Of a stretch of DNA of 20,688 bases, positions 2,543 through 20,688 are shown in pieces. Every line of letters begins with the position of its first letter. The stretch's first letter is position 1. A program made the translations under genes and the position numbers. This DNA is from a virus. The stretch is from the IMG/VR virus record IMGVR_UViG_3300032288_003868, positions 1 to 20,688 of that record; one strand, 5' to 3'. The notes beneath the pieces are model-generated. The model saw only the letters and a list, made by a program, of their open reading frames with translations. It ran no database searches and was not told the DNA's origin.

Positions 2543-3691
2543 TTAGACCTTGAACCATGAAAGGAATTGGCCAACTTTTTTGGTGACACTGGTCCAATCT
2601 CCGCGCCTGGGTTGTCTAAACAGTCTTGCAGTGGGGTACCAAGGGCTGTCGTCTCGGTTCAGGAGCCAACGCCAATCTTGTCCATATTGATTCAGCATGA
2701 TCCAGGTTGGTCTACCCAAGGCGCCGGCCAAGTGACTCACAGCAGTGTCAACTGAAACCACAACATCCATGTGCATGAGCAAAGCAGCGGTGTCAGCAAA
2801 GCTGCTGATACTGTTGGGATAAGCAGTCACGCCAGCCGCAGCCAACTCAGCAGCTTGTTGGTCATCAACATCAACTTGTAAATTGATCCACTCATATTGA
2901 GGATTGGATCGGATCATGTCAAGTATGACAGGAAACGGAACACTCTTGTGTTGATGGATCCAAGAATCTGTGCGGCCACTCCAGCTGACGCCCACACGCA
3001 TGCGAGTTTTTGGCCCCAGGCGTTCTTGCCAAGCTTTGAACAGAGCTGGGTGTGCAGTGAGATAACTTTGAATTTTGGGAATGTTATCAAGTGTTACACC
3101 TAGTATACCTGGGATACTCATGATGGGAATCCAATAATCAAACTCGCCCATGTCTTCATCATATCTGCTCACTTGTTGAATGATGTCGCTGGCACCCAAC
3201 AATGGAATCAAGCCGTCTGTAACCTGCAATTTGACCCGAGCTCCCATGGCATGCAAGTTGAAAATAAATCTTGAAAATTGTATGCAATCCCCATGACCTT
3301 GTTCGCCTACTACAAGAATAGTTTTGTCTCGGAGATCTTCTCCGCGCCAGCGAGGTTGAACGTACTTTGGTTCAGTACCAGCAAGATGTTCAAACCTCCA
3401 ACGTGATTCGTACTGCGGCCAACCTCGCTGGTAATCTCCTGCCAATAGATATGCCACTGCTAAATTGAATTGCGCAGTGATATTAGAGGGATCCAACAAA
3501 ACGGAATGTTGTAAAAATGGTATGGCACGTTGTGGATGGCCAAGCTCGCGCATGACATTGCCGTAGTTGCAAAATGCTGGGGCATTGTCGGGATCTTCTA
3601 CCAAGACCTGTGCGTAGCATTTCAAAGACTTTTCGGGTTCGTGTTGGGCACGATAGTCATTGCCTTGCTGAATTATGTCTGGGATATTCAT
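2543..3691 (-). CDS. TPR-repeat protein with glycosyltransferase-like domain
   Basis: From the ATG at 3691 this encodes 382 residues. Residues 1 to about 97 form TPR helices (the spaced pattern of Asn-Tyr-Gly-Asn, LLDPSN and FNLAVAYLLAGDYQRGW). From about 120 a Rossmann-like domain begins with KTILVVGEQGHGD (123-135). The C-terminal part holds VSVDTAVSHLAGALGRPTW (near 313-330) followed by DWRWLLNRDDSPWYPTARLF, a signature of TPR-linked GT9/GT41-like glycosyltransferases (ADP-heptose or O-GlcNAc transferase relatives). The sugar and acceptor are unknown; virion proteins or host glycans are both possible. The frame stays open to a TTG at 3748, but that TTG belongs to the -35 box of a good sigma70-like promoter, so the internal ATG is the better start, although it lacks a clear Shine-Dalgarno. 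It is the only minus-strand gene here, inserted between head and tail-fibre genes, which suggests a separate expression class or later acquisition. Confidence 0.85.
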   Translation of the reverse strand: MNIPDIIQQGNDYRAQHEPEKSLKCYAQVLVEDPDNAPAFCNYGNVMRELGHPQRAIPFLQHSVLLDPSNITAQFNLAVAYLLAGDYQRGWPQYESRWRFEHLAGTEPKYVQPRWRGEDLRDKTILVVGEQGHGDCIQFSRFIFNLHAMGARVKLQVTDGLIPLLGASDIIQQVSRYDEDMGEFDYWIPIMSIPGILGVTLDNIPKIQSYLTAHPALFKAWQERLGPKTRMRVGVSWSGRTDSWIHQHKSVPFPVILDMIRSNPQYEWINLQVDVDDQQAAELAAAGVTAYPNSISSFADTAALLMHMDVVVSVDTAVSHLAGALGRPTWIMLNQYGQDWRWLLNRDDSPWYPTARLFRQPRRGDWTSVTKKVGQFLSWFKV

Positions 3692-3719
3692 GGTAATATT
3701 TACGTTGTGGCAGCTGACT

Positions 3720-3748
3720 ATTTTATATTTTCCATAAATACAAGTCAA
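3720..3748 (-). promoter_or_regulatory. Sigma70-like promoter for the minus-strand glycosyltransferase
   Basis: On the minus strand TTGACT (3743-3748) is followed after exactly 17 bases by TAAAAT (3720-3725): five of six matches to each box at ideal spacing. Transcription would begin near 3712, about 20 bases ahead of the ATG at 3691. It overlaps a late-type promoter on the opposite strand. Confidence 0.65.
3733..3740 (+). promoter_or_regulatory. T4-type late promoter candidate ahead of gene 3826-4650
   Basis: CATAAATA matches seven of eight bases of the T4 late consensus TATAAATA and is followed by C, as at another candidate site in this window (5309-5317). Transcription would begin near 3746-3748, giving a leader of about 80 bases before the ATG at 3826. 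It sits inside the spacer of the opposing sigma70-like promoter. Confidence 0.5.
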
Positions 3749-3825: not shown

Positions 3826-4650
3826 ATGGGAAGAGCTCTAAAAATTCAAAAAACAAACATTGGTTCCGGTACCGCAGTATCGGGCAGCAATCCAGTGGTT
3901 ACAACATACAACCAAAACGTGTTGACCGACGCTGGTTATCCCAACTTTGGCAGTTTGACCAATCCAGTTTATAACAGTGCTGGTACTCTAAGCGCAACAG
4001 ACTTTATTGGTGTAGTTGGTGGTTCCCCAGCAACCAGTACAGCCAGCACAACATTTCCAGAAATTGCTGCGACTGTTAACATCAGTTTGGCCGACGGAAC
4101 AAGCACAACATCAGGCGCAGGGCGTATTATTCGCCAGAAAGGTAGCCACAAGTTCTTGGTGGCTTACACAGCCTCTGCCACAGCTGATGAAAGTTTTATT
4201 GTTGGACAAGCCTATCAAGTTAGCACAGTTGGCACAACAGACTGGGCAGCAGTTGGTGCTGGCACTGGTGTAACCGTAGGCGATATCTTTACAGCCACAG
4301 CCGCAGGCGCAGGCACAGGCGAAGCATATCCAGTTGGGGTGTGCGTTTTGTCTAACACTGGAACACCTGCAGCAGGGTTTATGAGCATTGCTTACAGCGT
4401 AGGCGACAGTTCTGCTGTGTATGCCAGCTACATTACCAACAAGTGGGTACGTGACTGGAACGGTATGACTTATGGCAACTATTCTAACAGCAACTTTGGT
4501 GTCAACATTCAATCTGGTGAAAACTTCTATCCTGTGAACTTCTTCACAGACGAAGGAACCGTGACATGGTCTGGCGCTGAAGTTATCAACAGTGCCGAAG
4601 CACCAAACGGAACACTACAGTTGGCGCAAGTCGACAAAGTTACAAGCTAA
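3826..4650 (+). CDS. Virion-type protein with an inserted beta module; role unknown
   Basis: This 274-residue Gly/Ala/Thr/Ser-rich protein has no signal peptide or membrane segment. It resembles hypothetical structural proteins common in marine T4-like phages: an MGRALKIQK start, a GVVGG turn near 62-66, and RQKGSHKFLVA around 103-113. Residues of about 121-169 (FIVGQAYQVSTVGTTDW through DIFTATAAGAGTGEAYP) are a widespread phage beta module, usually found in tail or head-surface proteins, which here interrupts the body between LVAYTAS and VCVLSNTG. The context (late-type promoter, location between head genes and fibres) supports a structural role such as decoration or neck/tail, but I cannot choose. 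The ATG at 3826 follows AAGGAG at 3813-3818 with good spacing. A hairpin 18 bases past the stop ends the transcript or regulates the next gene. Confidence 0.8.
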   Translation: MGRALKIQKTNIGSGTAVSGSNPVVTTYNQNVLTDAGYPNFGSLTNPVYNSAGTLSATDFIGVVGGSPATSTASTTFPEIAATVNISLADGTSTTSGAGRIIRQKGSHKFLVAYTASATADESFIVGQAYQVSTVGTTDWAAVGAGTGVTVGDIFTATAAGAGTGEAYPVGVCVLSNTGTPAAGFMSIAYSVGDSSAVYASYITNKWVRDWNGMTYGNYSNSNFGVNIQSGENFYPVNFFTDEGTVTWSGAEVINSAEAPNGTLQLAQVDKVTS

Positions 4651-4698: not shown

Positions 4699-5283
4699 AT
4701 GACCGTGGCATTTGTATTGGGCAATGGCGTGAGTAGACGCTCTGTGGATTTGAATCAACTAAAAACTTTTGGCCGAGTTTATGGGTGCAACGCCATTTAT
4801 AGAGAATTTGAACCAGACGTTTTGATCAGTACGGATCAACCCATTAGCGAACGCATACAACAGGAAGGTTACAGTCAAACGCATGTTCACTACACTAGGA
4901 AACCCATGAACAATTTGGGCGCCAATCGAATTCCGCAACAGTATTTTGGTTTCAGTTCGGGCCCAGTGGCTGTGGGCCAAGCTGCACTGGATGGTGCCAT
5001 GGTGATTTATCTTGTGGGATTTGACATGGGCCCCACACAAAATGGTAGATTCAACAATGTGTATGCAGACACTGAATTTTACAAAAAAAGTTCTGGTGTG
5101 CCCACTTTTACTGGAAACTGGGTGCGGCAATTGAAAACCATCGCAAAAGACCATTGCAAGGTCAGTTTCTTTAGAGTGGTAGGAGATACCACAGCAGAAA
5201 TCCGAGAACTCTTGGGTGTGCCCAACTTGGCGCACATCACTCTGGCAGAATTTCAACATCGCCTAGCGAGTGGAAAAATTTAA
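4699..5283 (+). CDS. GT42/DUF115-like Rossmann protein (putative glycosyltransferase)
   Basis: This 194-residue protein starts with a nucleotide-binding-type strand and turn, VAFVLGNGVSRR (GNG at 8-10), then GCNAIYREF (29-37), PDVLISTDQP (39-48), SSGPVAVGQAAL (86-97) and VIYLVGFDMG (102-111). The order GNG-x-S, C-N, SG-x, then a strand ending G-(F/I)-D matches the layout of GT42 sialyltransferases such as Campylobacter CstI and of related DUF115/MptE-like proteins; short relatives occur in T4-like marine phages. I see no clear equivalent of the GT42 catalytic His, so activity and substrate are uncertain; sugar transfer to virion or host glycans is inference. The start is set by GGGAGG at 4686-4691, seven bases before the ATG, within the hairpin described separately. 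No separate promoter is visible, so expression probably depends on read-through from the gene before it. Confidence 0.75.
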   Translation: MTVAFVLGNGVSRRSVDLNQLKTFGRVYGCNAIYREFEPDVLISTDQPISERIQQEGYSQTHVHYTRKPMNNLGANRIPQQYFGFSSGPVAVGQAALDGAMVIYLVGFDMGPTQNGRFNNVYADTEFYKKSSGVPTFTGNWVRQLKTIAKDHCKVSFFRVVGDTTAEIRELLGVPNLAHITLAEFQHRLASGKI

Positions 5284-5338: not shown

Positions 5339-8300
5339 ATGACGCAACAAATAATAGATGTGGGGGCAAATGCCAACGATGGAACCGGCGAGCCTTTGCG
5401 TCAAGCGTTTACTGCGGTAAACGACAATTTCACACAGATTTGGGCTGCTGGTCCAGTTGGTACCAACGTAAAAATCTCTGGCAACATAGTCACAACCACA
5501 GTTACTAACCTGGGTCTTACTCTAGCCGGCAATGGTATCGGCAACATACAAGCCAACAGTACCATTGTACCTGGCACATCTGGGGTGTATGATCTTGGTG
5601 CTCCGGACAGAACGTTTCAGTACATTTATGGCGATTATTTTGTTGGCAATGGTGCCTTGCTCACAGGCATAGTTGCCAACACCAGTTACAATGATTCAAA
5701 TGTGGCTGCATTTTTGCCCACCTACACTGGGAATTTGGTCAGTCTCACTGGGCCAGTCATAACCACCTCAAATATTACCGGGGGCAATATCGTCACCAGT
5801 GGTGTCGTGAGTGCAGCGGGCAACATCACTGGTGGCAACACAATCACAGGCAACAGTTTACGCAGTCTGGGTACCATCAGCGCAGCTGGAAACATTACCA
5901 CAGCAGCCAACGTTTCTGCCAACTACTTTATTGGTAATGGTGCACTGCTGACTGGAATCACAGCAACAAACATTTCTGCGGCTGCTCTCACAGGAACCAC
6001 ATTGAGTTCCAATGTGTTGTATTCAAGTCTAAAAGTTGTAGACGATTTGTTGTATTTGGATGTTGTTGGCAACATCACAACCACAGGACAATTCATAGGA
6101 TCAGGCGCTGGAATCACAGACATTCCAGCTGCCAATGTTTCTGGACAAGTTGCCAACGCACTAGTGGCAGGCACAGTATATAACAATACACAACCAAACA
6201 TAACTTCAGTTGGTGTTCTAACATCTCTCACAGCAACTGGTAATATCTCTGGCAATTATTTTATTGGTAATGGTGCACTGCTAACTGGCATTGCCGCAAC
6301 TAATGTCAATGCCAATGCACTTGTTGGTGACACACTGAGTGCCAACGTTCTATACTCAAGTCTGAAAGTTGTAGATGATTTGTTGTATTTGGATGTCGTT
6401 GGCAACATCACAACCACTGGAAGATTTATTGGCTCAGGTGCTGGGCTGATCAACATACCAGGCGCCAATGTCTCGGGTACAGTGGCCAATGCTGCCTATG
6501 CTACCGCAGCAGGAACTGCGTATTCAATTGCGGGCGCCAATGTCTCGGGCACAGTGGCCAATGCTGCCTATGCCATCACAGCAGGAACTGCTGCCACTGC
6601 CAACACAGCTACTACCGCCACCTACGCTGATACAGCAAATACTGTGGCGGGCGCCAATGTCTCGGGTACAGTGGCCAATGCTGCCTATGCCACCACAGCA
6701 GGTAGTGCTACCACAGCTACCACAGCCACCACTGCTGGTACAGTGACTTCAGCCGCACAACCAAACATTACCAGCGTTGGCACATTGACCTCAGTTGCAA
6801 TCTCAGGAAATGCCACAGCAGGAAATATATTAACCAGTGGTAGAATCAGCGCGGTTGGAAATATAACTGGCAATTATTTTATTGGTAATGGTTCGTTGTT
6901 GACAGGGGTGTTGGCAACCAACGTTAATGCCAATGCGTTGGTTGGCAATACACTGAGTTCAAATGTTTTATATTCAAGTTTAAAAGTAGTTGATGACTTG
7001 TTGTATTTGGATGTCGTTGGCAACATCACAACCACAGGACAATTTGTAGGATCAGGAGCAGGTCTTACTACCATACCTGGAGCAAATATCACAGGAACAG
7101 TGGCCAATGCTGCCTATGCCACTGTGGCAGGAACAGTTGCTTCAAATGCGCAGCCTAATATCACCAGCGTAGGTACGCTGACGTCGTTGTCATCATCGGG
7201 TAACATCACTGCCAATTATTTCATTGGCAACGGCAGCCAATTAACTGAAGTCACTGCTGCCCGCGTGTCAGCCAATGCATTAACAGGCAACACACTCAGC
7301 GCCAATGTACTAAACTCAAGTTTGGTGTCTGTGGGCAACCTGAATGGCTTGTCTGTGATTGGTAACACTACTGGTGGAAACTTTTTTGCTCAGGGTCAAG
7401 TCAGTGCCAGCGGCAATATCACAGGCAATTACTTTATTGGTAATGGTAGTCAACTGACTGGTATAGTCGCATCCAATATTGGGGTTCTATCAAATTTAAG
7501 TGTTACTGGAAACACCACCACTGGCAACTTGTTGTCAAATGGATCAATAAGTGCAGTTGGTAACATCAGAACTGTTGGCAACGTCTCGGGCAATTACTTC
7601 ATTGGTAATGGCGCTCTACTGACTGGTATCACTGTGGCAGCTGGCACAGCCATTGTCAACGGCAATAGCAATGTCAACGTGGGTGCCAACGGCAATGTCA
7701 CTGTCAGCACAGCTGGTGTCAGCAACGTGGCAGTATTTGACCCCACAGGCGTTTCCGTTGCAGGTCTGATATCGGCCACAGGCAACGTCACCGGCAATTA
7801 CTTGTTGGGCAACGGTGCTTTTATAACTGGATTGCCTGCAGGATACAGCAATGCTGATGTTGCCAATTATTTGCCCACCTATTCAGGTAATTTGGTCAGT
7901 CTCACTGGACCAGTCATCACAACCGCCAACATCACTGGCGGCAATTTACTCACAGCTGGGCAAGTAAGTGCTGCAGGCAATGTTTCTGGCAATTATTTTA
8001 TTGGTAACGGTAGTCAGCTAACAGGTGTTGCAGCATCCAGCGCGAATGCCAATGCTTTGGTGGGAACAACACTCAGTTCAAATGTTTTATACTCAAGTTT
8101 GACCCAAGTTGGCACACTGGCCAATCTAACAGTCACGGCCAATATTGCAGGTGGTAATGTTTTAACGGGTGGTACAGTAAGTGCCGCAGGTAATATTATC
8201 GGTGGCAACATTGTTACTTCAGGATCTGGCGGCAATATTTCGGGTGCTAACGTAATATCTGGAACCACTCTCAGCGCCACTGCCAATGTGATTGGTGGAA

Positions 8301-10384
8301 ATATAGTTACAGCAGGTGTAATCACTGCAACCGGTGAAATTACTTCAGCAGCTAATGTTACTGGTTCTAATTTGGTCACTTCTGGTTTGGTCACAGTCTC
8401 GGGCAATATCACAGGTGGCAATGTACTCACGGGTGGTCTGATCAGTGCCACCGGTAATGTGATTGGTGGAAACGTTAATACTAGTAATATTCAACCTCTC
8501 AGCGGTGCATTAACAATCTCTACAGCCTCAGGTAATCTAAATCTACAACCAGCTGGCAATGTTGTTTTATCTAACACCGTCATCAACAGTGTTGCTTATC
8601 CTCAACAAGACACAGATGCGGCCACTAAACAATATGTAGACAATGCAGTATCAACGGCAATTTCATATCATCAACCTGTAGTAGCAGCCACCATAAGCAC
8701 TTTGGACACGGCCACAGGCGGCACTGTTACATACAGCCAGCCCAACGGCGCAGGCAACGGCGTTGGGGCATTATTGACCACAACAGGATCATTCAACCTC
8801 ATTGACACAGCCAATGTCCAAACAGTGGGCACACGTATCTTGGTCAAGAACGAAGCCAATGCAGTATTCAATGGTGTTTACACTTGGGCCAATGCCACAA
8901 ATCTTATCCGTGCCACAGACGCGGACACTTATGGCGCTGCCAATACAGCAGCTCTTGGAATCAATGATTACTTTTTTGTAACCAATGGTAACGTGAACTT
9001 GGGCAGTGCTTACGTTGTCAGCGCACCAGTGGGCACAATTACTTTTGGCACCAGCAACATTGCTTTTGCTCAGTTCAGTAGTTCACAAACTTATACCGCC
9101 AATACCAATGCTGGTTTAAGTCTGATAGGTACTGTTTTCAGTGCCAAAGTTGATCAAAATACCACGGCATTTGATGGCAGTGGTAACATTGTTGTCAAGG
9201 CCGGAGCCAATCTTACAACTCCAAATATTGGTGCTGCAACTGGTACAAGTATAAGTTTAACTGGTAATGTAACTGGTGGCAATGTACTGACTGGCGGCAT
9301 TGTGTCAGCTACAGCCAACATAATTGGTGGCAATGTACTGACTGGCGGCATTGTGTCAGCTACAGCCAACATAATTGGTGGCAATGTACTGACCGCTGGT
9401 CTAATCAGTGCTACATCAACTATTACTTCGGCTGCCAACATCTCTGGTGGCAATGTACTGACAGGTGGGCTAGTTTCTGCCACAGGCAATGTTTACGGCA
9501 ATGCAATACTGTCTGACAACTATTTTTATGCCAACGGTGTTCCAATTCCCACAGGAATTGTGTACACAGCTTCTACATCTCCTCCCGCTGGTCCAGATCT
9601 TGCTGATCAGTGGTACGATACTGCCAATGATGTATTGTATGAATACATCAGCGATGGAACAAGTCAGTACTGGGTAGACGTAAATTCGCCCGCTTTTGCA
9701 GGTGGTGTGGTTGCAAATGTGGCTATTTCGGGTAGCATGATACCCAATGCCAACCTTGTGTACAATATTGGCAGCCCCAGCACAGTTTTCAACACAGCTT
9801 ACATCAACACTGTGAATGTGTCTGCCTCGGTGAATTCTTCGCTGATCAATGTTGGCACCTTGGCCAATGCCACTGCAATTGTGTTGCAAACCAACGGTGC
9901 CAATGCCATCAGCATTGATGGCAGTCAAAATTTAACATTTGCAAATAGATTGCGAGCCAATGCCATGCCAGTGGGCGCCGTGGTTCAAACAGTGATGAGT
10001 TCTGCTCTGGGCGGCAGCATAACCAACAGCACCTCTTATGTAGACATCAGTTCAGCAACGGTTACGATTACGCCATCAAGTGCAACCAGCAAAATTTTGA
10101 TTCTGGCCACAGGAACCAGCAGTTTTACTTCGGTGTCCGGTGCCAACGTTACAGCTGATACACAGTTGGTCAGAAGCCCAACTACTAGTTTGCAGATACA
10201 AAATTACGAGAGCACCATTGCTGGTGGCGGAATTGGGGGAGCGGGAGCAATTGCATATTCGTATCAAGACAGTCCAGGTACCACCAGCGCCGTTACTTAC
10301 AAATTGCAACAAAAAATATCCAACGCTAGTAGCACTTTGACCAGCACAAATATTTGGCTCATAGCCATGGAGATTGCCGCATGA
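5339..10384 (+). CDS. Giant repetitive tail-fibre protein (1681 aa)
   Basis: This is probably a long trimeric fibre that contacts the host surface. The N-terminus (IIDVGANANDGTGEPLRQAF, then VNDNFTQIW) is a familiar start of phage tail-fibre and baseplate-attached proteins. Residues of about 100-1085 are beta-rich repeats: GNYFIGNGxLLTGI units, three long VVDDLLYLDVVGNITTTG units, an alanine-rich GANVSGTVANAAYA section near residues 375-460, and GGNxLTGG units. Residues of about 1087-1280 (ATKQYVDNAV, RILVKNEANAVFNGVYTW, RATDADTYG, DYFFVTNGNVNLGSAYVV) form a conserved spacer domain also present in the 2231-residue fibre. About 1408-1455 (WYDTANDVLYEYISDGTSQYWVD) is another shared motif. The last 140 residues (from MPVGAVVQTVMSS) resemble a beta-sandwich tip found at many phage fibre ends, the likely receptor-binding head. 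The stop overlaps the next start (ATGA). Confidence 0.9.
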   Translation: MTQQIIDVGANANDGTGEPLRQAFTAVNDNFTQIWAAGPVGTNVKISGNIVTTTVTNLGLTLAGNGIGNIQANSTIVPGTSGVYDLGAPDRTFQYIYGDYFVGNGALLTGIVANTSYNDSNVAAFLPTYTGNLVSLTGPVITTSNITGGNIVTSGVVSAAGNITGGNTITGNSLRSLGTISAAGNITTAANVSANYFIGNGALLTGITATNISAAALTGTTLSSNVLYSSLKVVDDLLYLDVVGNITTTGQFIGSGAGITDIPAANVSGQVANALVAGTVYNNTQPNITSVGVLTSLTATGNISGNYFIGNGALLTGIAATNVNANALVGDTLSANVLYSSLKVVDDLLYLDVVGNITTTGRFIGSGAGLINIPGANVSGTVANAAYATAAGTAYSIAGANVSGTVANAAYAITAGTAATANTATTATYADTANTVAGANVSGTVANAAYATTAGSATTATTATTAGTVTSAAQPNITSVGTLTSVAISGNATAGNILTSGRISAVGNITGNYFIGNGSLLTGVLATNVNANALVGNTLSSNVLYSSLKVVDDLLYLDVVGNITTTGQFVGSGAGLTTIPGANITGTVANAAYATVAGTVASNAQPNITSVGTLTSLSSSGNITANYFIGNGSQLTEVTAARVSANALTGNTLSANVLNSSLVSVGNLNGLSVIGNTTGGNFFAQGQVSASGNITGNYFIGNGSQLTGIVASNIGVLSNLSVTGNTTTGNLLSNGSISAVGNIRTVGNVSGNYFIGNGALLTGITVAAGTAIVNGNSNVNVGANGNVTVSTAGVSNVAVFDPTGVSVAGLISATGNVTGNYLLGNGAFITGLPAGYSNADVANYLPTYSGNLVSLTGPVITTANITGGNLLTAGQVSAAGNVSGNYFIGNGSQLTGVAASSANANALVGTTLSSNVLYSSLTQVGTLANLTVTANIAGGNVLTGGTVSAAGNIIGGNIVTSGSGGNISGANVISGTTLSATANVIGGNIVTAGVITATGEITSAANVTGSNLVTSGLVTVSGNITGGNVLTGGLISATGNVIGGNVNTSNIQPLSGALTISTASGNLNLQPAGNVVLSNTVINSVAYPQQDTDAATKQYVDNAVSTAISYHQPVVAATISTLDTATGGTVTYSQPNGAGNGVGALLTTTGSFNLIDTANVQTVGTRILVKNEANAVFNGVYTWANATNLIRATDADTYGAANTAALGINDYFFVTNGNVNLGSAYVVSAPVGTITFGTSNIAFAQFSSSQTYTANTNAGLSLIGTVFSAKVDQNTTAFDGSGNIVVKAGANLTTPNIGAATGTSISLTGNVTGGNVLTGGIVSATANIIGGNVLTGGIVSATANIIGGNVLTAGLISATSTITSAANISGGNVLTGGLVSATGNVYGNAILSDNYFYANGVPIPTGIVYTASTSPPAGPDLADQWYDTANDVLYEYISDGTSQYWVDVNSPAFAGGVVANVAISGSMIPNANLVYNIGSPSTVFNTAYINTVNVSASVNSSLINVGTLANATAIVLQTNGANAISIDGSQNLTFANRLRANAMPVGAVVQTVMSSALGGSITNSTSYVDISSATVTITPSSATSKILILATGTSSFTSVSGANVTADTQLVRSPTTSLQIQNYESTIAGGGIGGAGAIAYSYQDSPGTTSAVTYKLQQKISNASSTLTSTNIWLIAMEIAA
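5923..7117 (+). repeat. Three long imperfect repeats in the first giant fibre
   Basis: Starting near 5923, 6256 and 6874, the same succession recurs: FIGNGxLLTGI, ANALVG, LSxNVLYSSLKVVDDLLYLD, VVGNITTTG, FIGSGAG, IPxAN, GTVANA. The copies are close to identical in protein over about 75 residues, with scattered synonymous base changes. They are in frame and spaced 333 and 618 bases apart. Confidence 0.85.
6461..6690 (+). repeat. 41-base near-identical repeats encoding GANVSGTVANAAYA
   Basis: Copies at 6461-6501, 6533-6573 and 6650-6690 differ at a single base (C or T in the Gly codon of VSG); a more diverged fourth copy lies near 7079-7119. The sequence between them is Ala/Thr-rich. The near-identity contrasts with the synonymous drift of other repeats in the gene and suggests recent duplication or conversion. 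Confidence 0.85.
9275..9376 (+). repeat. Perfect 51-bp tandem duplication
   Basis: 9275-9325 and 9326-9376 are identical and encode the 17-residue unit GGNVLTGGIVSATANII twice in frame; a third copy begins at 9377 and then diverges. This is the 17-residue repeat unit used on a larger scale in the 2231-residue fibre. Confidence 0.9.
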
Positions 10385-10919: not shown

Positions 10920-13900
10920 ATGGCATTTCCAGTATCACCAACAAATGGACAAATAACGGTAGTAAATCAAGTATCTTACCAGTACTCTAGTGCAACAAAC
11001 TCTTGGACTAGAATTTTATCGACCGCAAACGTTATCACAGCCAACACAATTGCTGTTAACGGTGCGCTCACAGTGGGCACCACAATCAGTGCCACAGGTA
11101 ACATAACTGGCAACTACTTTATTGGTAATGGTAGCCAACTTACTGGAATCGCAGCAAGTACTTCTGGTTTCCCAGTCTCTGCTGGAAACAGCAATATTGC
11201 TGCCACAGCCAACGGCAACATTTTTGTCTCTGTGGCTGGTACATCAAATGTGGCAGTTTTTGCCACCACGGGTGAATATATAACAGGCGTTTTAAGCGCC
11301 AGCGGCAATGTAACTGGCGGCAATATTTTAACAGCTGGATATGTGTCGGCAACTGGGGCGATCACTGGTTCCAGTCACTTGGGTGCAGTGGTTTCAGTAA
11401 CTGGCAACATCACAGGTGGCAACGTATTGACAGGTGGTGCTGTATCAGCTACTGCCAACGTAACAGGCGGTAACGTACTAACTGATGGTGCTGTGTCAGC
11501 AACCGCCAACATCACAGGTGGTAACGTATTGACCGGTGGCTTAATTTCAGCCACATCAACCATTACTTCTGCAGCCAACATCACTGGTGGTAACGTATTA
11601 ACTGGCGGACTTGTTAGTGCCACCAGCAATGTCACAGGCGGCAACTTGTTGACTGGCGGAATTGTGTCTGCAACCGGTACTGTGACTGGCTCAAGTTTGT
11701 TGGGATCAGTAGTCAGTGCTTCGGGCAACGTCACAGGTGGTAACGTATTGACCGGTGGCTTGATTTCAGCCACATCAACCATCACATCAGCAGCCAACAT
11801 CACAGGCGGCAATATATTGACCGGGGGCGCAATATCTGCAACCGGCAATGCAACATTTGGAAATATTACTACCAGCGGCTCTGGTGGCAACATTTCGGGT
11901 GCCAACGTAATTTCTGGTACCACATTGAGTGCAAGCGGTAACGTAATTGGTGGTAATATAACCACAGCAGGCTTGATATCAGCTGCTGGTAACGTGACTG
12001 GCAATTACATTCTTGGTAACGGCTATTTCTTAACTGGAGTAATCACTTCAGTAGCCAACATCAATAACGGAACATCTAATGTCAACATTGCTGCTGCCAA
12101 TGCCAACGTCACAGTCAGCGTTGATGGAACATCAAACGTGGTGGTGTTTGCATCAACCGGTGAATATGTCAATGGGTTAATTTCCGCAAGTGGCAACATC
12201 ACTGGCGGCAACGTACTCACAGGAGGATTGATCAGCTCAACTGGTACAATCACATCAGCAGCCGACATAACTGGTGGCAACGTATTGACAGGTGGTGCTG
12301 TATCAGCTACTGCCAACGTAACAGGCGGTAACGTACTCACAAGTGGATTGATTTCTGCCACATCAACCATTACATCAGCAGCCAATATTGCTGGTGGCAA
12401 CGTATTGACAGGTGGTGCTGTATCAGCTACCGCCAACGTAACAGGTGGTAACGTATTGACAGGTGGTGCTGTATCAGCTACTGCCAACGTAACTGGTGGC
12501 AATTTGTTGACAGGTGGATTAATCAGTGCCACATCAACTATTACATCAGCAGCCAACATCACTGGTGGCAACGTACTCACCGGTGGCTTGGTATCAGCAA
12601 CTGGCACAATCACATCAGCAGCCAATATCACAGGCGGTAACGTATTAACGGGTGGTGCTGTATCAGCTACCGCCAACGTAACAGGTGGTAACGTACTAAC
12701 AGGTGGTTTGGTAAGTGCAACTGGCACAATCACATCAGCAGCCAACATTACTGGTGGCAATGTGTTGACAGGTGGTTTAGTATCGGCAACTGGCACAGTA
12801 ACTGGTTCAAGTTTGTTGGGATCAGTGGTCAGTGCTTCGGGTAATGTTACAGGTGGCAACATACTCACAGGTGGTGTTGTATCAGCAGCAGCCAACGTAA
12901 CTGGTGGTAATTTGTTAACAGGTGGATTGATCAGTGCTACATCAACAATCACATCAGCAGCCAATATCAGTGGTGGTAACCTACTCACAGGTGGCGCAGT
13001 ATCCGCAACAGCCGACGTAACTGGTGGTAATTTGTTGACAGGTGGCGCTGTATCTGCAGCAGCCAACATCACTGGTGGCAACGTACTCACAGGTGGTTTG
13101 GTAAGTGCAACTGGTACTATCACCTCAGCAGCCAACATTACTGGTGGCAATGTGTTGACGGGTGGTCAGGTGTCTGCAACTGGCAACATCACTGGCGGCA
13201 ATATTCTAAACAACGGTTTGATATCAAGTTCAGGCAATAGTATTGCTGCCAATTATTTGACAAGCGGAATTGTCAGTGCAACGGCCAATATCACTGGTGG
13301 TAACGTACTAACAGGTGGATTGATATCAGCCACATCAACTATAACATCACAGGCCAACATCACTGGTGGTAATATAACCACAGGCGGTTTGGTAACTGCT
13401 ACAGGAAACGTCACCGGCGGCAACATTAGAACTGCTGGAACAGTGTCAGCAACTGGCGACATTATCACAGCTGGCAACGTAAGTCTTGCTGGCAACATTG
13501 TTGATTCTGGTGAATTAACTATTACTACTGCATCAGGCAACTTAAATCTAGAACCAGCCGGCAACATTGTATTGGGCAATCGCTACATCAACGGGGTGCA
13601 ACTTACTCCAGTGCAAAACTCTGATGTAGCTTCTAAGTATTATGTTGACCTTCAGGCTTCGACTGCATTAGCATATCACGAAGCAGTGGTTGTGGCTACC
13701 GATACCACTTTGGCTACAGCCACAGGCGGTACCATAACTTACAATCAGCCCAATGGTGCTGGCAATGGTATTGGCGCCACACTGACCACCACAGGAACAT
13801 TTAATCTTATTGACACAGCCAACGTGCAAACAGTGGGCACACGTATCATGGTCAAGAACGAAGCTAATGCTGTACACAATGGTATCTATGTATGGTCAAA

Positions 13901-16900
13901 TGCTACAGTGATCACACGAAGCACAGATGCTGATGAATACGGTCCCAACGATGCTGAACAACTCAGTATCAACGACTACTTCTTTGTGACCAGCGGTAAC
14001 GTGAACTTGGGATCAGCCTGGGTAGTTGATCAACCCACAGGAACTATCACATTTGGTACCAGCAATATTGCGTTTGCTCAGTTCAGCCAGGCTCAGATTT
14101 ACTCAGCCAACACTAGTGCTGGTTTGGTCTTGAATGGTCAGACATTCAGCGCCAAGGTTGATAACATTACTACAGCCTTTGATCTCAGTGGCAACATCAT
14201 TGTCAAAGCATCAGCTAATCTAACAACTCCCAATATTGGTGCAGCAACTGGCACCAGCTTAAACACTACAGGTAATGTGACTGGCGGTAACTTGTTGACA
14301 GCTGGCTTGGTAAGTGCAACTGCCAACGTAACTGGTGGTAACTTGCTGACAGCTGGCTTTGTGTCAGCTACTGGTACAGTAACTGGCTCAAGTCTATTGG
14401 GTGCAGTGGTTTCAGTGACAGGTAATGTCACTGGCGGTAACGTCTTGACAGGTGGTTTAATCAGCTCAACAGGAACGATTACTTCTGCAGCCAATATCAC
14501 TGGCGGTAACGTCTTGACAGGTGGTTTAATCAGCTCAACAGGAACGATTACTTCTGCAGCCAATATCACTGGCGGCAACTTGTTGACAAGTGGTGCAGTA
14601 TCGGCTACTGCCAACATTACAGGTGGCAATGTACTCACAGCTGGATTAATTTCTGCAACTGGCAACATCACAGGCGATAACTTCATTGCTGGAAATGCGT
14701 TTATTGGTAATATTCAAGTAACTGGCAATATTAACGTAAACAGCGTGACTTCTAACACTATTGTTAGTGCGGTTGGTAATGTAACCGGTGGTAACTTGCT
14801 GACAGGTGGTGCAGTATCTGCAACAGCCAACGTAACTGGTGGCAATGTGCTCACAGGTGGTGCAGTATCAGCTACTGCCAACATCACTGGTGGCAATGTG
14901 CTCACAGGCGGCCTGATTAGCTCAACTGGTACCATTACATCAGCAGCCAACATCACTGGTGGTAACGTACTGACAGGTGGACTAGTATCTGCAACTGCCA
15001 ACATTACTGGTGGCAACTTGTTGACAGGTGGCTTAATTTCAGCTACATCAACAATCACATCAGCAGCCAATATTGCTGGCGGCAACTTGTTGACAGGCGG
15101 TGCAGTATCGGCTACTGCCAACATTACAGGTGGTAATGTACTCACAAGTGGTTTGGTATCAGCGACTGGCACAATTACATCAGCAGCCAATATCACTGGT
15201 GGTAATGTATTGACAGGTGGACTAGTGTCTGCAACTGCCAACGTAACCGGTGGTAACTTGTTGACAGGCGGTGCTGTTTCAGCTACTGCCAATATTACAG
15301 GTGGTAACGTACTCACAGGTGGCTTGATTAGCTCGACTGGTACTATTACATCAGCAGCCAATGTAACCGGTGGCAACTTGTTGACAGGTGGTGCTGTATC
15401 GGCTACTGCCAACGTAACCGGTGGTAACGTACTCACAGGTGGTGCTGTATCGGCTACTGCCAACATCACTGGTGGCAATGTGCTCACAGGCGGCCTGATT
15501 AGCTCAACTGGCAACGTAACTGGTAATTACATTCTTGGTAATGGCGCATTCTTAACTGGTGTAATTACTTCAGTAGCCAATATCAACAACGGAACATCCA
15601 ATGTTGACATTGCTACTGCCAACGCCAACATTACTGTAAGCGTCAACGGCACATCAAATGTGGCAGTGTTCTCCAACACTGGTGTAGCAGTTTCTGGCAC
15701 AGTTTCGGCAACTGGCAACGTGACTGGTGGTAACGTACTCACAGGTGGCTTGATTTCAGCTACATCAACCATCACATCAGCAGCCAATATCACAGGTGGC
15801 AACATCCTAACTGGTGGATTAGTAAGTGCAACTGCCAACGTAACAGGCGGTAACTTGTTGACAGGTGGCTTGATTTCAGCAACTGCCAACATTACAGGTG
15901 GCAACGTACTCACAGGCGGATTGATCAGCTCAACTGGTACAATCACATCAGCAGCCAACGTAACAGGCGGTAACTTGTTGACAGGTGGCTTGATTTCAGC
16001 CACATCAACCATCACAAGCGCAGCCAATATCACTGGTGGTAATGTGCTCACAGGCGGATTGGTAAGTGCAACTGCCAACATTACTGGTGGCAATGTGTTG
16101 ACGGGTGGTTTGGTATCAGCTACCGCTAACGTAACTGGTGGAAACTTACTCACAGCAGGTATCATAAGTGCCACAGGTAACATCCGTGGTGGCAACGTTG
16201 CAGCAACAAACTTCTACTATGCCAATGGTGTTGCAGTTGTGGGTTATTCAGCATCTACAACTCCCCCAGCAAACCCAACCACAGGCTGGTGGTGGTACAA
16301 CACTTCTACCGACGTACTTTATGAATACCTCAATGATGGAACATCAAATTATTGGGTAGACGTATCAAGTCCTGCATTCTCAAATGGCCCTGCAGGCGAC
16401 ATGGCTATATATGGCAACTTGTTGGCTGGAGCCAATGCCACGTACAACATTGGTAGCCCAATAGCAACGTTCAACAATGTGTACGCTCAGAACTACTACG
16501 GTAATGGCGCTACACTGACTGGTATTATAACCAGCGTGAGTAATATCAACAATGGTACTTCCAACATCACTGTTGTGAGTTCTGGCGGTAACATTACAAC
16601 CAGCGTGGGCGGCACAGCCAACGTTGGTGTATGGTACGATAGTGGTTTGAGCATCACTGGTGACTTGACTGTGACTGGCAATGCTACATTGACTGGAAAC
16701 ATCCTGGGCGACAGAGTACAAAACGGTACAACCAGTATTGATATTCAGTCAGCAGGCGGCAATGCCAACGTCAACATTGGTGGCACAGGCAACTTGGCAG
16801 TATTCTCTCCGGGCAACTTGGTGATGACTGGTAACATTAACCCCAGTGCCAATATCACATACGATCTAGGCACATCAAGTCAACGTTGGAAAGACATCTG

Positions 16901-17615
16901 GTTGGCCAACAGCACAATCTACCTGGGCAACGCTCAAATCAGTGCCAACGCCACTGCGGTTACAATTGTTAACCCTGCAGGCGGTACCACAGTATTGGCT
17001 GGTTTGACTCCGAGCATTACTGGTAATGTGGTAAGTGCAAGTGGCAACATCACAGGTGGTAACATTCTGACAGGTGGATTGATCAGTGCAACTGGTGCAA
17101 TCACTGGTTCTAGCTTGACAGTATCAACTGGTAATGTTACATTGGGCAACATTATCAACGCCAACGGTAACGCGGTAGGCAACATTGGTAGTTCAAGCAA
17201 CTACTTCAACACCATATTTGGTAAAGCAACCACAGCACAGTATGCTGACTTGGCAGAAAACTATCTGGCTGATGCAGCGTATACTCCAGGAACAGTTTTG
17301 GAATTTGATGGCGAACAAGAGGTTACTATAAGTACTCGTGATTCCAGCAAGCGGGTTGCTGGTGTGGTTTCTACAAACCCAGCGCACTTGATGAACTCAA
17401 CTCTTGACGGCGCACACGTTGTTGCTGTGGCTTTGGTTGGACGAGTACCAACACAAGTAACTGGCAAAATTGTCAAGGGTGATTTGATGGTATCTGCTGG
17501 GAATGGTCGTGCAAGAGCCGAAGCCAATCCTACAGTAGGTACTGTGATTGGTAAAGCATTGGAAAACTTTAGCGGCGGTGAAGGCACTATCGAAATCGTG
17601 ATTTGTATGCAATAA
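10920..17615 (+). CDS. Giant repetitive tail-fibre protein (2231 aa)
   Basis: At 6.7 kb this is about a third of the window and probably forms a very long trimeric beta-structured stalk. N-terminus: MAFPVSPTNGQ, then a YQYSSATNSWTRI stretch, shared with the next gene and likely the attachment end. Residues of about 128-840 and 1116-1760 are arrays of 17-residue (NVTGGNVLTGGAVSATA) and 23-residue (adding STITSA) units, about 57 GGN-type copies in all. Between the arrays, about 898-1090, sits the KNEANAV spacer domain shared with the first giant. Later come a WWWYNTSTDVLYEYLNDGTS motif (about 1785), DLGTSSQRWKDIWLANSTIY (about 1982) and a distinct C-terminal domain (about 2105-2231: YADLAENYLAD, FDGEQEVTIS, RVAGVVSTNPAHLMNS, VALVGRVPTQV, GKALENFSGGEGTIEIVI), a conserved end domain of phage fibres. 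The ATG at 10920 follows GGAGAA. No frameshift interrupts the frame. Confidence 0.92.
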   Translation: MAFPVSPTNGQITVVNQVSYQYSSATNSWTRILSTANVITANTIAVNGALTVGTTISATGNITGNYFIGNGSQLTGIAASTSGFPVSAGNSNIAATANGNIFVSVAGTSNVAVFATTGEYITGVLSASGNVTGGNILTAGYVSATGAITGSSHLGAVVSVTGNITGGNVLTGGAVSATANVTGGNVLTDGAVSATANITGGNVLTGGLISATSTITSAANITGGNVLTGGLVSATSNVTGGNLLTGGIVSATGTVTGSSLLGSVVSASGNVTGGNVLTGGLISATSTITSAANITGGNILTGGAISATGNATFGNITTSGSGGNISGANVISGTTLSASGNVIGGNITTAGLISAAGNVTGNYILGNGYFLTGVITSVANINNGTSNVNIAAANANVTVSVDGTSNVVVFASTGEYVNGLISASGNITGGNVLTGGLISSTGTITSAADITGGNVLTGGAVSATANVTGGNVLTSGLISATSTITSAANIAGGNVLTGGAVSATANVTGGNVLTGGAVSATANVTGGNLLTGGLISATSTITSAANITGGNVLTGGLVSATGTITSAANITGGNVLTGGAVSATANVTGGNVLTGGLVSATGTITSAANITGGNVLTGGLVSATGTVTGSSLLGSVVSASGNVTGGNILTGGVVSAAANVTGGNLLTGGLISATSTITSAANISGGNLLTGGAVSATADVTGGNLLTGGAVSAAANITGGNVLTGGLVSATGTITSAANITGGNVLTGGQVSATGNITGGNILNNGLISSSGNSIAANYLTSGIVSATANITGGNVLTGGLISATSTITSQANITGGNITTGGLVTATGNVTGGNIRTAGTVSATGDIITAGNVSLAGNIVDSGELTITTASGNLNLEPAGNIVLGNRYINGVQLTPVQNSDVASKYYVDLQASTALAYHEAVVVATDTTLATATGGTITYNQPNGAGNGIGATLTTTGTFNLIDTANVQTVGTRIMVKNEANAVHNGIYVWSNATVITRSTDADEYGPNDAEQLSINDYFFVTSGNVNLGSAWVVDQPTGTITFGTSNIAFAQFSQAQIYSANTSAGLVLNGQTFSAKVDNITTAFDLSGNIIVKASANLTTPNIGAATGTSLNTTGNVTGGNLLTAGLVSATANVTGGNLLTAGFVSATGTVTGSSLLGAVVSVTGNVTGGNVLTGGLISSTGTITSAANITGGNVLTGGLISSTGTITSAANITGGNLLTSGAVSATANITGGNVLTAGLISATGNITGDNFIAGNAFIGNIQVTGNINVNSVTSNTIVSAVGNVTGGNLLTGGAVSATANVTGGNVLTGGAVSATANITGGNVLTGGLISSTGTITSAANITGGNVLTGGLVSATANITGGNLLTGGLISATSTITSAANIAGGNLLTGGAVSATANITGGNVLTSGLVSATGTITSAANITGGNVLTGGLVSATANVTGGNLLTGGAVSATANITGGNVLTGGLISSTGTITSAANVTGGNLLTGGAVSATANVTGGNVLTGGAVSATANITGGNVLTGGLISSTGNVTGNYILGNGAFLTGVITSVANINNGTSNVDIATANANITVSVNGTSNVAVFSNTGVAVSGTVSATGNVTGGNVLTGGLISATSTITSAANITGGNILTGGLVSATANVTGGNLLTGGLISATANITGGNVLTGGLISSTGTITSAANVTGGNLLTGGLISATSTITSAANITGGNVLTGGLVSATANITGGNVLTGGLVSATANVTGGNLLTAGIISATGNIRGGNVAATNFYYANGVAVVGYSASTTPPANPTTGWWWYNTSTDVLYEYLNDGTSNYWVDVSSPAFSNGPAGDMAIYGNLLAGANATYNIGSPIATFNNVYAQNYYGNGATLTGIITSVSNINNGTSNITVVSSGGNITTSVGGTANVGVWYDSGLSITGDLTVTGNATLTGNILGDRVQNGTTSIDIQSAGGNANVNIGGTGNLAVFSPGNLVMTGNINPSANITYDLGTSSQRWKDIWLANSTIYLGNAQISANATAVTIVNPAGGTTVLAGLTPSITGNVVSASGNITGGNILTGGLISATGAITGSSLTVSTGNVTLGNIINANGNAVGNIGSSSNYFNTIFGKATTAQYADLAENYLADAAYTPGTVLEFDGEQEVTISTRDSSKRVAGVVSTNPAHLMNSTLDGAHVVAVALVGRVPTQVTGKIVKGDLMVSAGNGRARAEANPTVGTVIGKALENFSGGEGTIEIVICMQ
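11302..13440 (+). repeat. First GGN-x-LTGG repeat array in the 2231-residue fibre
   Basis: About 29 in-frame copies of a 51-bp (17-residue) or 69-bp (23-residue) unit follow one another, interrupted by a GNYILGNG/GTSNVVVF module near 11995-12175. Protein units are almost invariant, but codons differ between copies (for example aac-gta, aat-gtg and aac-ttg after GGN). A few copies end in GSSLLGSVVSASG instead of the standard unit. Confidence 0.92.
14266..16200 (+). repeat. Second GGN-x-LTGG repeat array in the 2231-residue fibre
   Basis: A further 28 or so copies of the 51/69-bp unit follow the spacer domain, broken by a non-repeat segment near 14670-14770 (GDNFIAGNAFIGNIQV) and by a GNYILGNG/GTSNVAVF module near 15520-15700. 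The pattern mirrors the first array, as if the whole stalk segment had been duplicated and then edited. Confidence 0.92.
14431..14568 (+). repeat. Perfect 69-bp tandem duplication
   Basis: 14431-14499 and 14500-14568 are identical and encode two consecutive 23-residue units ending in SSTGTITSAANIT. Surrounding units have several synonymous differences, so this pair is probably a recent duplication or conversion. Confidence 0.9.
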
Positions 17616-17625
17616 AGGATAGAAG

Positions 17626-19218
17626 ATGGCCTTTCCAGTATCGCCGACGAACGGCCAAACTGCTATTGTTAACAACATAACATATCAGTTTTCCAACGTC
17701 GGCAACACGTGGACACGCCTTGGGTCCACTGCTAATACCATAACGGCCAACATCATAACGGCCAACACTCTCAATATCAACACACAGATAAGCGTTACTG
17801 GTAATGTAACCGGTAACTATATCTTGGGCAACGGTGCTCTGCTGACTGGCATCACTACCAGTTCCAACAGCATATTCAATGGTACAAGCAACGTCACTGT
17901 AGTAAGTTCAGGTGGCAACGTCACAGTTGGCGTTGGTGGAACCAGCAACATAGCGGTGTTTGCCACCACAGGCGAATACATCACCGGTTTAGTAAGTGCC
18001 AGCGGCAACATCACCGGCGGCAATATTTTAACAGCCGGAGCAATATCGGCCACTGGTACTCTCAGCGTCACAGGTAACACAACACTTAGTACGACTAGCA
18101 CAGGAAACTTATCAGCAGGTAACGTGACTACAGGTGGCATAGTTTCGGCCACAGCCAACATCACTGGTGGAAATATACTAACTAGCGGATTGATAAGCGT
18201 TGCTGGAAACGTCACTGCCGCAAACTTTTTTGGCAATATCTATACCAACGGTTATTATTATGCAAACGGTGCTCCGTTTTCTGGTGGCGGTGGCGGCACT
18301 CCCGGCGGCGCAAACACTCAAATACAGTTCAATGATGGTGGTGTTTTTAGTGGCTCTGCTGCATTGACTTTTGATAAAACTTCAAATGCTGTTACTGCTT
18401 CTGCCAATATCACCGGCGGCAACATCATATCTCTCGGGATAGTGAGCACTGTTGGGCGTCCCACATTTGGTGCTATAACATTGCCAAACACAGACGGCAC
18501 AGCCAATCAACTTTTGGCCACTTATGGCAACGGCTCCTTGTATTTTGCCAACGTCTCTGCTGGCAATGTATTGTCACAGACCTTTACCGGCAACGGAGTA
18601 CAAACAGTATTCACGTTGAGTTCAGCACCGCCCAGCATCAATTCCACGTTTGTAAGTTACAATGGTGTGTTGCTGTTGAGATCCACTTATTCGTTGTCTG
18701 GAGCAAATATAACTTTTAGTTCAGCACCAGCCAATGCTTCTTCAATTGAAGTAACCACAGTAAACCCCGGCAGCGGTGGACTTTCAGGAACACCCACAGC
18801 AGCAGGCACAGACACTCAGGTCCAGTTCAACGATGGCGGCATTTTTGGTGCCAACGCAAACCTTACATTCAACAAAACCAGCGGCGTATTCACTGCCAAA
18901 AATCTAGCATCAGGCGGCAGCATCAACGAAACTGTGTATACCATCACCGACGGTGCCGCAGTTGATTTGAATCCCACCAACGGCACAGTTCAGTTGTGGA
19001 CTCTGGGTGCCAGCCGAACACCTACTGCCAGTAGTTTTTCATCAGGTCAAAGCATGACCTTGATGATAACAGCCAACGTGTATTCAATAACTTGGACCAG
19101 TGTAGGAGTGAACTGGGTAGGAAACAGTGCGCCCACACTGGCCAGCACGGGCAACACTGTGATAGTGCTTTGGAAAGTCAGCAGCACTGTTTATGGTGCA
19201 TTGTCGGGGACTGTATAA
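17626..19218 (+). CDS. Short tail-fibre paralogue (530 aa)
   Basis: It shares the MAFPVSPTNGQ N-terminus and the YQFSNVGNTWTRLGSTAN continuation with the 2231-residue fibre, so both probably attach at the same kind of site. A GNYILGNG/GTSNIAVF module and only a few GGN units follow. Two copies of a TQIQFNDGG/LTFDKTS motif (about 229-258 and 395-425) flank a TFTGNGVQTVFTLSSAPP domain (about 319-385). The C-terminal 100 residues (ITDGAAVDLNPTNGTVQLW, GQSMTLMITANVYSITW, VIVLWKVSSTVYGALSG) are a common phage fibre end domain, unlike the ends of both giants. The ATG lies 11 bases after the previous stop with AAAGGAT ahead, so it is probably co-transcribed. This looks like an alternative, short-stalked fibre carrying another tip. 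Confidence 0.9.
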   Translation: MAFPVSPTNGQTAIVNNITYQFSNVGNTWTRLGSTANTITANIITANTLNINTQISVTGNVTGNYILGNGALLTGITTSSNSIFNGTSNVTVVSSGGNVTVGVGGTSNIAVFATTGEYITGLVSASGNITGGNILTAGAISATGTLSVTGNTTLSTTSTGNLSAGNVTTGGIVSATANITGGNILTSGLISVAGNVTAANFFGNIYTNGYYYANGAPFSGGGGGTPGGANTQIQFNDGGVFSGSAALTFDKTSNAVTASANITGGNIISLGIVSTVGRPTFGAITLPNTDGTANQLLATYGNGSLYFANVSAGNVLSQTFTGNGVQTVFTLSSAPPSINSTFVSYNGVLLLRSTYSLSGANITFSSAPANASSIEVTTVNPGSGGLSGTPTAAGTDTQVQFNDGGIFGANANLTFNKTSGVFTAKNLASGGSINETVYTITDGAAVDLNPTNGTVQLWTLGASRTPTASSFSSGQSMTLMITANVYSITWTSVGVNWVGNSAPTLASTGNTVIVLWKVSSTVYGALSGTV

Positions 19219-20688
19219 TGTTGTTGAGTAGAGGTCTTTTAACAGTGGGCGGTGCGGTGCCTGGCGGAGTGCTGTTTCGCAGTCAAAACGGGGCCGCGAA
19301 CAATTCCACAACTTCTTACACTATCACTGTGCCACCGGGAGTTACCAGCATTGCAGCCTTGGCCATAGGCGCAGGCGGAGGTGGTGGTGGAGCCAGCAGC
19401 GGTGCCACAGCAGCAGCCGGGGGTGCTGGCGGAGGCGCCTTGAGCTACAGCAACAGTATTGCAGTTACTCCCGGCGAAACTCTTACTGTCAACGTTCCAA
19501 ATCAAGCAGACAACGGCGGACTCACTGGCACTGCTGGTGCTGCAGGCCGCGACGCCAGCATCTTGCGAGGAGCCACCACCCTGTTGTTGGCACAAGGTGG
19601 CCGCGGATCCAACGGAACTACAGGTGGTACAGCAGGCACCGGCGCAGCAGGTGGAGCAGCAGCGTCTGGAGTTGGCGATGTGCGACAATCTGGTGGTGCT
19701 GGGGGCAACGGCACGGCAGCCAACGACATTGGTGGTGGTGGAGGCGGCGCAGCCGGTTACTCAGGCACTGGCGGCCAAGGTGGTACCAATGTAGGCAGCG
19801 GCAATGCAGGCGCAGGCGGCGGCGGCGGCGGCGGTGGCACTTTCAGCAACAGCATCATCAGCGGACCTGGTGGCGGAGTTCTATGGTATGGGCAAGGGGC
19901 AAATGGAGCAGGCGGGCTAAACAATGCTGGAAACGCAGTTGGCAGACTTGGTTCTAGTATTGGCGGTAGAACCAGCGTGTCAGACGTTACCTACGCTGCA
20001 AACTCATCAAACATGATTGGTTTGCCAGGATCCGGCGGCGCCGGTGCTCCTAGTGCGGGATCCACGGCCTATTATGGTGGCCAGGGAGCCGGCGGCGCAG
20101 TTCGCATACTTTGGAACAAAACTTTTGATTGGGCTGCCCCGCTGAATGTTACATCCAACACAATAACCATACCCGAATATACTACCAGTGCCACCGCCAA
20201 CATTGTTACCCCGCAGGTGCAACTGGGTGATACCTTGTATTTTGTAGACTACGCCATGGGTGCCACACTGCCTGCAGCAGTGACACCTTCGGGATTTACC
20301 ATATTGGGCACAAGCCAAACCAGTGGCACCACTAGATTAACCGTTTACACTCGACAAGTGTTGAGCTACACTGAATCAGGAGTCACACTAACCGGTGCCA
20401 CAGGCAGCACCATAATGTCCAAGTTTTTGATAGTGGTGCGAGGCACAGCAGGCGCCGCCCGTAGTGATTGGCAGAGTGTGCTGGGCGGAACTGGCAGCTC
20501 TACTTCAGTGCAGTCCGCTGCCAGTTTTACCTATACACAAACGGGCACGGTGGGCATATCAACCACTACCACCACTATTGATGCTTATGCCATGGGCGTG
20601 CCTGTGTGTTTCTTGTTTTTTGGCAGTGGCACCGGATCTGATATCAATCCTGACACCGACATGACCATGACCGGTGCCACCACATTGC
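19218..20688 (+). CDS. Glycine-rich tip-like adhesin (partial, runs off the right edge)
   Basis: The ATG at 19218 overlaps the previous stop (TAATG) and follows GGGGA at 19206-19210; the frame is open for 490 codons to the window end. Near residues 35-60 it has TSYTITVPPGVTSIAALAIG followed by GAGGGGGG, the entry of the glycine-rich phage adhesin domain. Many Gly runs follow up to about residue 300, ending with GGAVRILWNK. These Gly-rich segments recall the polyglycine sandwich of T-even gp38 adhesins, which sit at the tip of long tail fibres and choose the receptor. After about residue 305 come beta-type Thr/Ser/Gly repeats (VTPQVQLGDTLYFVDYAMGA and a related TIDAYAMGVPVCFLFFG) that look like duplicated domains. 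A receptor-binding role is inferred from composition and position; the true C-terminus is outside the window. Confidence 0.85.
   Translation, partial: MLLSRGLLTVGGAVPGGVLFRSQNGAANNSTTSYTITVPPGVTSIAALAIGAGGGGGGASSGATAAAGGAGGGALSYSNSIAVTPGETLTVNVPNQADNGGLTGTAGAAGRDASILRGATTLLLAQGGRGSNGTTGGTAGTGAAGGAAASGVGDVRQSGGAGGNGTAANDIGGGGGGAAGYSGTGGQGGTNVGSGNAGAGGGGGGGGTFSNSIISGPGGGVLWYGQGANGAGGLNNAGNAVGRLGSSIGGRTSVSDVTYAANSSNMIGLPGSGGAGAPSAGSTAYYGGQGAGGAVRILWNKTFDWAAPLNVTSNTITIPEYTTSATANIVTPQVQLGDTLYFVDYAMGATLPAAVTPSGFTILGTSQTSGTTRLTVYTRQVLSYTESGVTLTGATGSTIMSKFLIVVRGTAGAARSDWQSVLGGTGSSTSVQSAASFTYTQTGTVGISTTTTTIDAYAMGVPVCFLFFGSGTGSDINPDTDMTMTGATTL
19815..19838 (+). repeat. In-frame GGC run encoding eight glycines
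   Basis: Six GGC codons (19815-19832) followed by GGT and GGC give eight consecutive glycines. A triplet run of this kind can change length by slippage without shifting the frame, which would alter a glycine-rich loop. Confidence 0.8.

Follow-up and report, generated by a model that had tools for sequence, protein, structure and literature searches.

What kind of protein is encoded by a 2231-residue reading frame filled with short repeats, and how its length is set, are the questions raised by the 20 688-base virus contig analysed here. This whole stretch of DNA is called the window. The protein is referred to as fibre 2, and the proteins encoded on either side of it as fibre 1 and fibre 3.

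Gene and domain organization of fibre 2

Fibre 2 is encoded by a single open frame of 2231 aa (10920–17615, + strand). The frame starts with an ATG preceded by a GGAG-type ribosome-binding-like site and stops 10 bases short of the following gene, fibre 3. A protein of this size carrying repeat arrays had been described in an initial annotation, and both the frame and the repeats were confirmed.

All the parts of the protein are given on the + strand, and the arrays were delimited by a repeat census. The N-terminal domain (MAFPVSPTNGQ..., 10920–11156) is conserved in relatives and in fibre 3 and is probably the attachment end. Next come the first copy of a module of about 68 residues (aa 68–132, 11121–11315), array 1a (aa 133–343, 11316–11948), the second copy of the module (aa 361–428, 12000–12203) and array 1b (aa 429–850, 12204–13469). 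The spacer domain (aa 880–1120, 13557–14279) is 71% identical to the spacer of fibre 1 and has distant relatives in fibres of isolated phages. It is followed by array 2a (aa 1122–1250, 14283–14669), by the uninterrupted array 2b (aa 1290–1534, 14787–15521), by the third copy of the module (aa 1535–1602, 15522–15725) and by array 2c (aa 1603–1756, 15726–16187). The distal part after the arrays (aa 1757–2109, 16188–17246) contains irregular repeats, and the protein ends with a domain (aa 2110–2231, 17247–17612) assigned by fold match to the phi29 gp12-like chaperone fold. The arrays total 1354 residues. The earlier description of two arrays around a spacer holds for the spacer, but left unmentioned that the arrays (aa 133–850 and 1122–1756) are also broken up by the module of about 68 residues, present in three copies in the protein. 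Long antisense frames were found in the arrays (up to 375 aa; e.g. 12023–13150, – strand). Codon repetition explains these frames, which are probably not genes.

Repeat units

Fifty-nine anchors of the type GGN[VIL]xT (GGNxLT-type) were counted in fibre 2. Successive anchors were separated by exactly 17 residues (n = 28), exactly 23 residues (n = 19), 33 residues (n = 4) or 85 residues (n = 2); the remaining spacings were 34 (2 × 17, n = 1), 31, 38 and two long ones. The initial annotation gave about 57 copies, which is acceptable as an anchor count, although exact lengths of 17 or 23 residues account for only 47 intervals. Its reading of the 23-residue unit as the 17-residue unit with six inserted residues (STITSA) was correct. 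Same-residue autocorrelation in fibre 2 reached 0.294 at lag 17 and Tandem Repeats Finder returned periods of 51, 69 and 120 nt from the DNA, which excludes a chance origin of the repeats. Recent duplications of single units were also detected. In fibre 2, a 69-nt unit coding for one 23-residue unit is repeated with a 95% match (14424–14594, + strand; Tandem Repeats Finder) and, in fibre 1, two and a half 51-nt units, 98% alike, derive from one 17-residue unit (9270–9393, + strand).

A strand-sized building block

Distances between successive anchors were collected from 234 non-redundant relative proteins. They were of 17 (1164), 23 (588), 22 (41), 28 (21), 29 (19), 33 (229) and 34 (96) residues, and other lengths made up only 41 of the 1874 distances in the range 12–31. 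The clusters at 17, 22/23, 28/29 and 33/34 can each be made up of steps of 5 and 6 residues: three steps for 17, four for 22 and 23, five for 28/29 and six for 33/34. In the arrays of fibre 2, hydrophobic periodicity peaked at 5.65 residues.

The sharpness of the peak at 23 may come partly from common descent. Because common descent alone could explain the frequency of the 23-residue unit, unit representatives were clustered below 70% identity and further lengths were tested. Unbroken chains of aliphatic residues spaced by 5 or 6 positions were counted and compared with shuffled units, the sole valid control; other step pairs cannot sum to most unit lengths. Such chains were present in 31 of 37 representatives of length 17 (shuffle mean 6.7), 10 of 11 of length 22 (1.05), 32 of 34 of length 23 (1.2), 5 of 9 of length 28 (0.17), 7 of 9 of length 29 (0.09), 7 of 10 of length 33 (0.15) and 11 of 14 of length 39 (0.06). 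Units of 31 and 32 residues did not follow the rule (0/2 and 0/4 representatives, respectively). Of 285 distinct 23-residue units, 283 have an aliphatic residue (I, V or L) at position 16, within the added hexad.

From these sequence patterns, we conclude that the true unit is one strand-sized block of 5–6 residues, used three times (17 residues) or four times (23 residues). The lengths 17 and 23 are not independent of each other. The defined repeat geometry suggested earlier is supported in this form; its two exact unit lengths become three or four steps of one block, to which the relatives add 22, 28/29 and 33/34. The stepped unit lengths read in the relatives are new here.

Fold of the shaft

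Two geometries were considered for a shaft built in this way. We give an even chance to a triple-stranded beta-helix, in which three chains would run round one axis, each with one strand per face; the register would then be kept however many strands were added. At the textbook value of 0.48 nm for each strand step, the 1354 array residues would form a rod of about 115 nm with interleaved chains, but of about 38 nm with a separate solenoid for each chain. Unit lengths that step by one strand and the free mixing of three- and four-strand units argue for this geometry, as does the C-terminal fold, which belongs to trimeric proteins. Most receptor-binding fibres of phages are trimers with an intertwined beta-helix (PMC9863714). 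Against it, a single-chain AlphaFold2 model preferred a solenoid.

That model was calculated for 13 units (array 2b), with 22 relatives in the alignment. It is a right-handed beta-solenoid (mean pLDDT 77.6, pTM 0.75) with three short strands per 17 residues and inserts of low confidence. It points to the second geometry, to which we attach a little under an even chance: each chain would form its own right-handed beta-solenoid of 17 residues per turn, three of them would lie side by side and the extra six residues would bulge at a corner. The body of phi29 gp12 is beta-helical, which is consistent with this arrangement. The model also superposed at 3.2–3.6 Å on the right-handed beta-helices of MpAFP (3p4g), HMW1 (2odl) and EtpA (8vbb), a similarity that depends on a type of model error-prone for repeats. 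Sequence searches of solved structures revealed no relationship between these three proteins and fibre 2. Chains of the left-handed beta-helices LpxA, LpxD and GlmU aligned only at about 11 Å rmsd, the handedness of the model being given by AlphaFold2 alone.

However, AlphaFold2 is known to give unjustified but confident solenoids for near-perfect repeats (PMC11795689), and the modelled fold is therefore treated as a lead only. The aliphatic residue at position 16 of the added hexad is unlike what is expected of a free loop, and the loop drawn for the six-residue insert sits badly with it. Foldseek returned no match to the array model below E 0.001 in the PDB. The initial annotation knew of no solved structure for the unit; sequence searches of solved structures returned no credible match, whether the query was the complete protein or a profile of the array. 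Among predicted structures of viral proteins (BFVD), the best Foldseek match to the array model was an uncultured Caudovirales protein (A0A6J5QQ29; E 7e-15, 48% identity), followed by weaker matches in Synechococcus phage S-CAM7 and in a protein of Paramecium bursaria chlorella virus. The BFVD matches are mostly predicted proteins without names, and the weaker ones may reflect a shared solenoid-like prediction alone. Two Pfam profiles scored below their cut-offs: the FapA beta-solenoid profile PF03961 (21.7 bits, curated cut-off 31) and the chlorovirus glycoprotein repeat PF06598 (20.5 bits for the N-terminal part of fibre 2 and 25 bits for fibre 1, cut-off 27).

C-terminal domain

The C-terminal domain was modelled with pLDDT mostly above 90 for residues 70–190 of the model. 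It has the same fold as the C-terminal chaperone domain of phi29 gp12 (Z 14.6–14.7, 2.3–2.6 Å): Z was 14.6 for 3gqh (2.3 Å over 109 residues) and 14.7 for 3suc. The domain occupies the C-terminal position in both proteins (aa 2110–2231 of 2231 in fibre 2). The next structural matches were the phi29 head-fibre base and head decoration proteins. Fibre 2 differs from gp12 in its shaft, made of tandem 17/23-residue units and not of the gp12 body, and in a sequence match too weak for the Pfam family Peptidase_G2 (PF11962). The fibre 2 domain did not match this family up to E 10; within the same limit eight of 32 relatives did (best E 4.1e-6), and the relatives scanned singly stayed below the cut-off (best 24.6 bits versus 25).

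The 3gqh alignment begins at phi29 residue 692, with which D2110 of fibre 2 is aligned. D2110 lies within an invariant ADLAE motif, which is aligned with the phi29 junction: mature gp12* ends at residue 691 (PMC6542822). Phi29 gp12 is a homotrimer and its chaperone domain is missing from the virion (PMC9863714). By analogy with gp12 through this fold, we infer that fibre 2 would be a homotrimer, and a cleavage is predicted just before D2110, with loss of the last ~122 residues.

Virus type and neighbouring genes

The genes upstream encode a phrog_10922 protein and a T4-type (gp23-type) major capsid protein (phrog_138, E 7.5e-99). The capsid protein was matched by 2485 phage records and is 62–67% identical to those of PA5oct, Phosso, Vibrio phage 2.275.O and Erwinia jumbo phages (66–67% for PA5oct and Phosso). 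The virus would be a myovirus related to T4, and jumbo phages have the capsid proteins nearest to its own. Fibre 1 (1681 aa, 5339–10384, + strand) has repeats of the same kind (14 GGN) and the same spacer domain. Fibre 3 (530 aa, 17626–19218, + strand) has an N-terminal domain 62% identical to that of fibre 2 and few units. Downstream, a frame that is open at the window end (19092–20687, + strand) encodes a glycine-rich protein matching phrog_4474, possibly another fibre or tip protein. Its true start is probably later than the listed TTG, since this codon overlaps fibre 3.

Three further genes lie between the capsid and fibre genes. The antisense gene at 2543–3748 (– strand) encodes a putative glycosyltransferase that combines TPR with a heptosyltransferase-like GT9 part (PF01075 27.5 bits, cut-off 22) and is kept in 29 of 32 relative loci with a capsid gene, loci that are not all independent. 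The gene at 4699–5283 (+ strand), kept in 26 of these 32 loci, matches phrog_4603, annotated as alpha-2,3-sialyltransferase (E 1.3e-6). Between these two putative glycosyltransferases, 3826–4650 (+ strand) encodes a protein without a Pfam or PHROG match, with related proteins in 46 relative loci. The motif N-x-S/T was present in 814 of 1164 17-residue units of the relatives. Fibre glycosylation is a testable idea.

Place on the virion

Counterparts in PA5oct (gp359), Phosso and Atu_ph07 have a C-terminal domain 38–44% identical to that of fibre 2. PA5oct gp359 was recorded in virions by ESI-MS/MS and its gene adjoins baseplate genes. The earlier view of fibre 2 as a fibre or stalk thus finds support in the gene block, in the C-terminal fold and in a virion protein with the same C-terminal domain. 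Unlike fibre 2, PA5oct gp359 (478 aa) and the Phosso protein (626 aa) have neither the 17/23 arrays nor the MAFPVSPTNGQ domain, and the repeat was also absent from the 3857-aa virion protein of PA5oct.

A tail or baseplate location is the most likely one. That fibre 2 is instead a head fibre or capsid whisker is improbable, though several observations fit it: head decoration proteins and the phi29 head-fibre base are among the matches to the C-terminal fold, 8.5 kb separate the gene from that of the capsid protein, and the whiskers of Atu_ph07, a phage whose counterpart shares the C-terminal domain, are mainly capsid-associated (PMC6102473). The position of the PA5oct gene in a baseplate gene block argues against it, as do the long kinked fibres of MIJ3, a close relative of PA5oct, which sit at the baseplate (PMC6892783). 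Phage CBB has whiskers of about 119 nm whose gene was not assigned (PMC5259590). A link between fibre 2 and the whiskers or fibres of CBB, Atu_ph07 or MIJ3 is only hypothetical.

Relatives and copy-number variation

Relatives of fibre 2 are encoded on more than 400 viral stretches, and relatives in viral contigs number in the hundreds for each of three parts: the array, the C-terminal domain and the N-terminal domain. No relative was confirmed among bacterial and archaeal genomes (one genome per species, 84 980 species). In phage records, tblastn picked up the spacer and C-terminal domains alone, the arrays being probably hidden by low-complexity masking. The 17/23 arrays were not found in the fibre proteins of Pelagibacter phage Mosig and Limnohabitans phage DC31 when these proteins were read.

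Twenty complete homologues with both end motifs ranged from 575 to 3563 aa and contained 7–90 GGN copies. In close pairs, copy number differed while the ends were held: L165 (60 copies) and L168 (47) have ends 97.9% identical, and L034 (45) and L090 (42) have ends 100% identical. The ends of L028 (90 copies) and L034 are 92% identical. When close pairs were aligned as nucleotides, many gaps within the arrays were ambiguous, and the lengths of single gaps were left out of the evidence. Judged from these sequences, copy number varies, and in close pairs does so faster than the ends. More copies would give a longer rod, and the fibre appears to be lengthened or shortened by gain or loss of units, in agreement with the initial proposal that length is set by copy number.

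The initial annotation had raised the doubt that the arrays might be an assembly artefact, which would be plausible for a metagenomic contig, where assembly of repeats is difficult. An artefact of this kind, or an unselected expansion, is highly improbable because the DNA differs among 45 of the 47 exact 17/23 units, because mean pairwise difference between units is 0.48–0.49 at third codon positions versus 0.06–0.08 at second positions (6–8 times more), as expected of old copies under selection on the protein, because full arrays of relatives are near-identical in different assemblies (4/6570, 36/5535 and 1/5667 nt differ, from source samples that may not be independent), and because related arrays number in the hundreds.

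Discussion

The explanation that we favour, and hold to be probable, is that fibre 2 is a long homotrimeric virion fibre, most likely of the tail or baseplate of a T4-related myovirus, with a shaft built in strand steps, a gp12-like chaperone at its C-terminus and units gained or lost between fixed ends. The conserved N-terminal domain would join the fibre to the particle. In the shaft, beta strands of 5–6 residues would follow one another in units that usually have three strands (17 aa) and in some cases four (23 aa), with small modules in between. The C-terminal domain would drive trimer formation and then probably be cut off. Recombination between similar copies would presumably add and remove units, and the array would thereby change quickly between ends that stay fixed. 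Three observations weigh against this explanation: the C-terminal domain falls short of Peptidase_G2, as do singly scanned relatives; the C-terminal fold is matched by head decoration and head-fibre proteins as well; and PA5oct gp359 has the C-terminal domain but no 17/23 arrays.

More tentatively, the shaft could be counted in single strands, one strand of 5–6 residues being gained or lost at a time. Three interleaved chains would keep the register, so that three- and four-strand units could mix and, in jumbo relatives, such shafts could be the unassigned long whiskers.

As a repeat-rich phage fibre, fibre 2 is ordinary. It is unusual in its size, in the strand-step rule of its lengths and in the range of natural copy numbers. 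If the favoured explanation is true, it would be a natural protein rod with fixed ends and a variable number of steps, of which many natural length variants exist, and the rule for such rods would be a simple one, an aliphatic residue every 5 or 6 positions. Fibres of this type would be candidates for the long whiskers of some jumbo phages, and the effect of shaft length on virus attachment would become testable in phage–host pairs kept in the laboratory.
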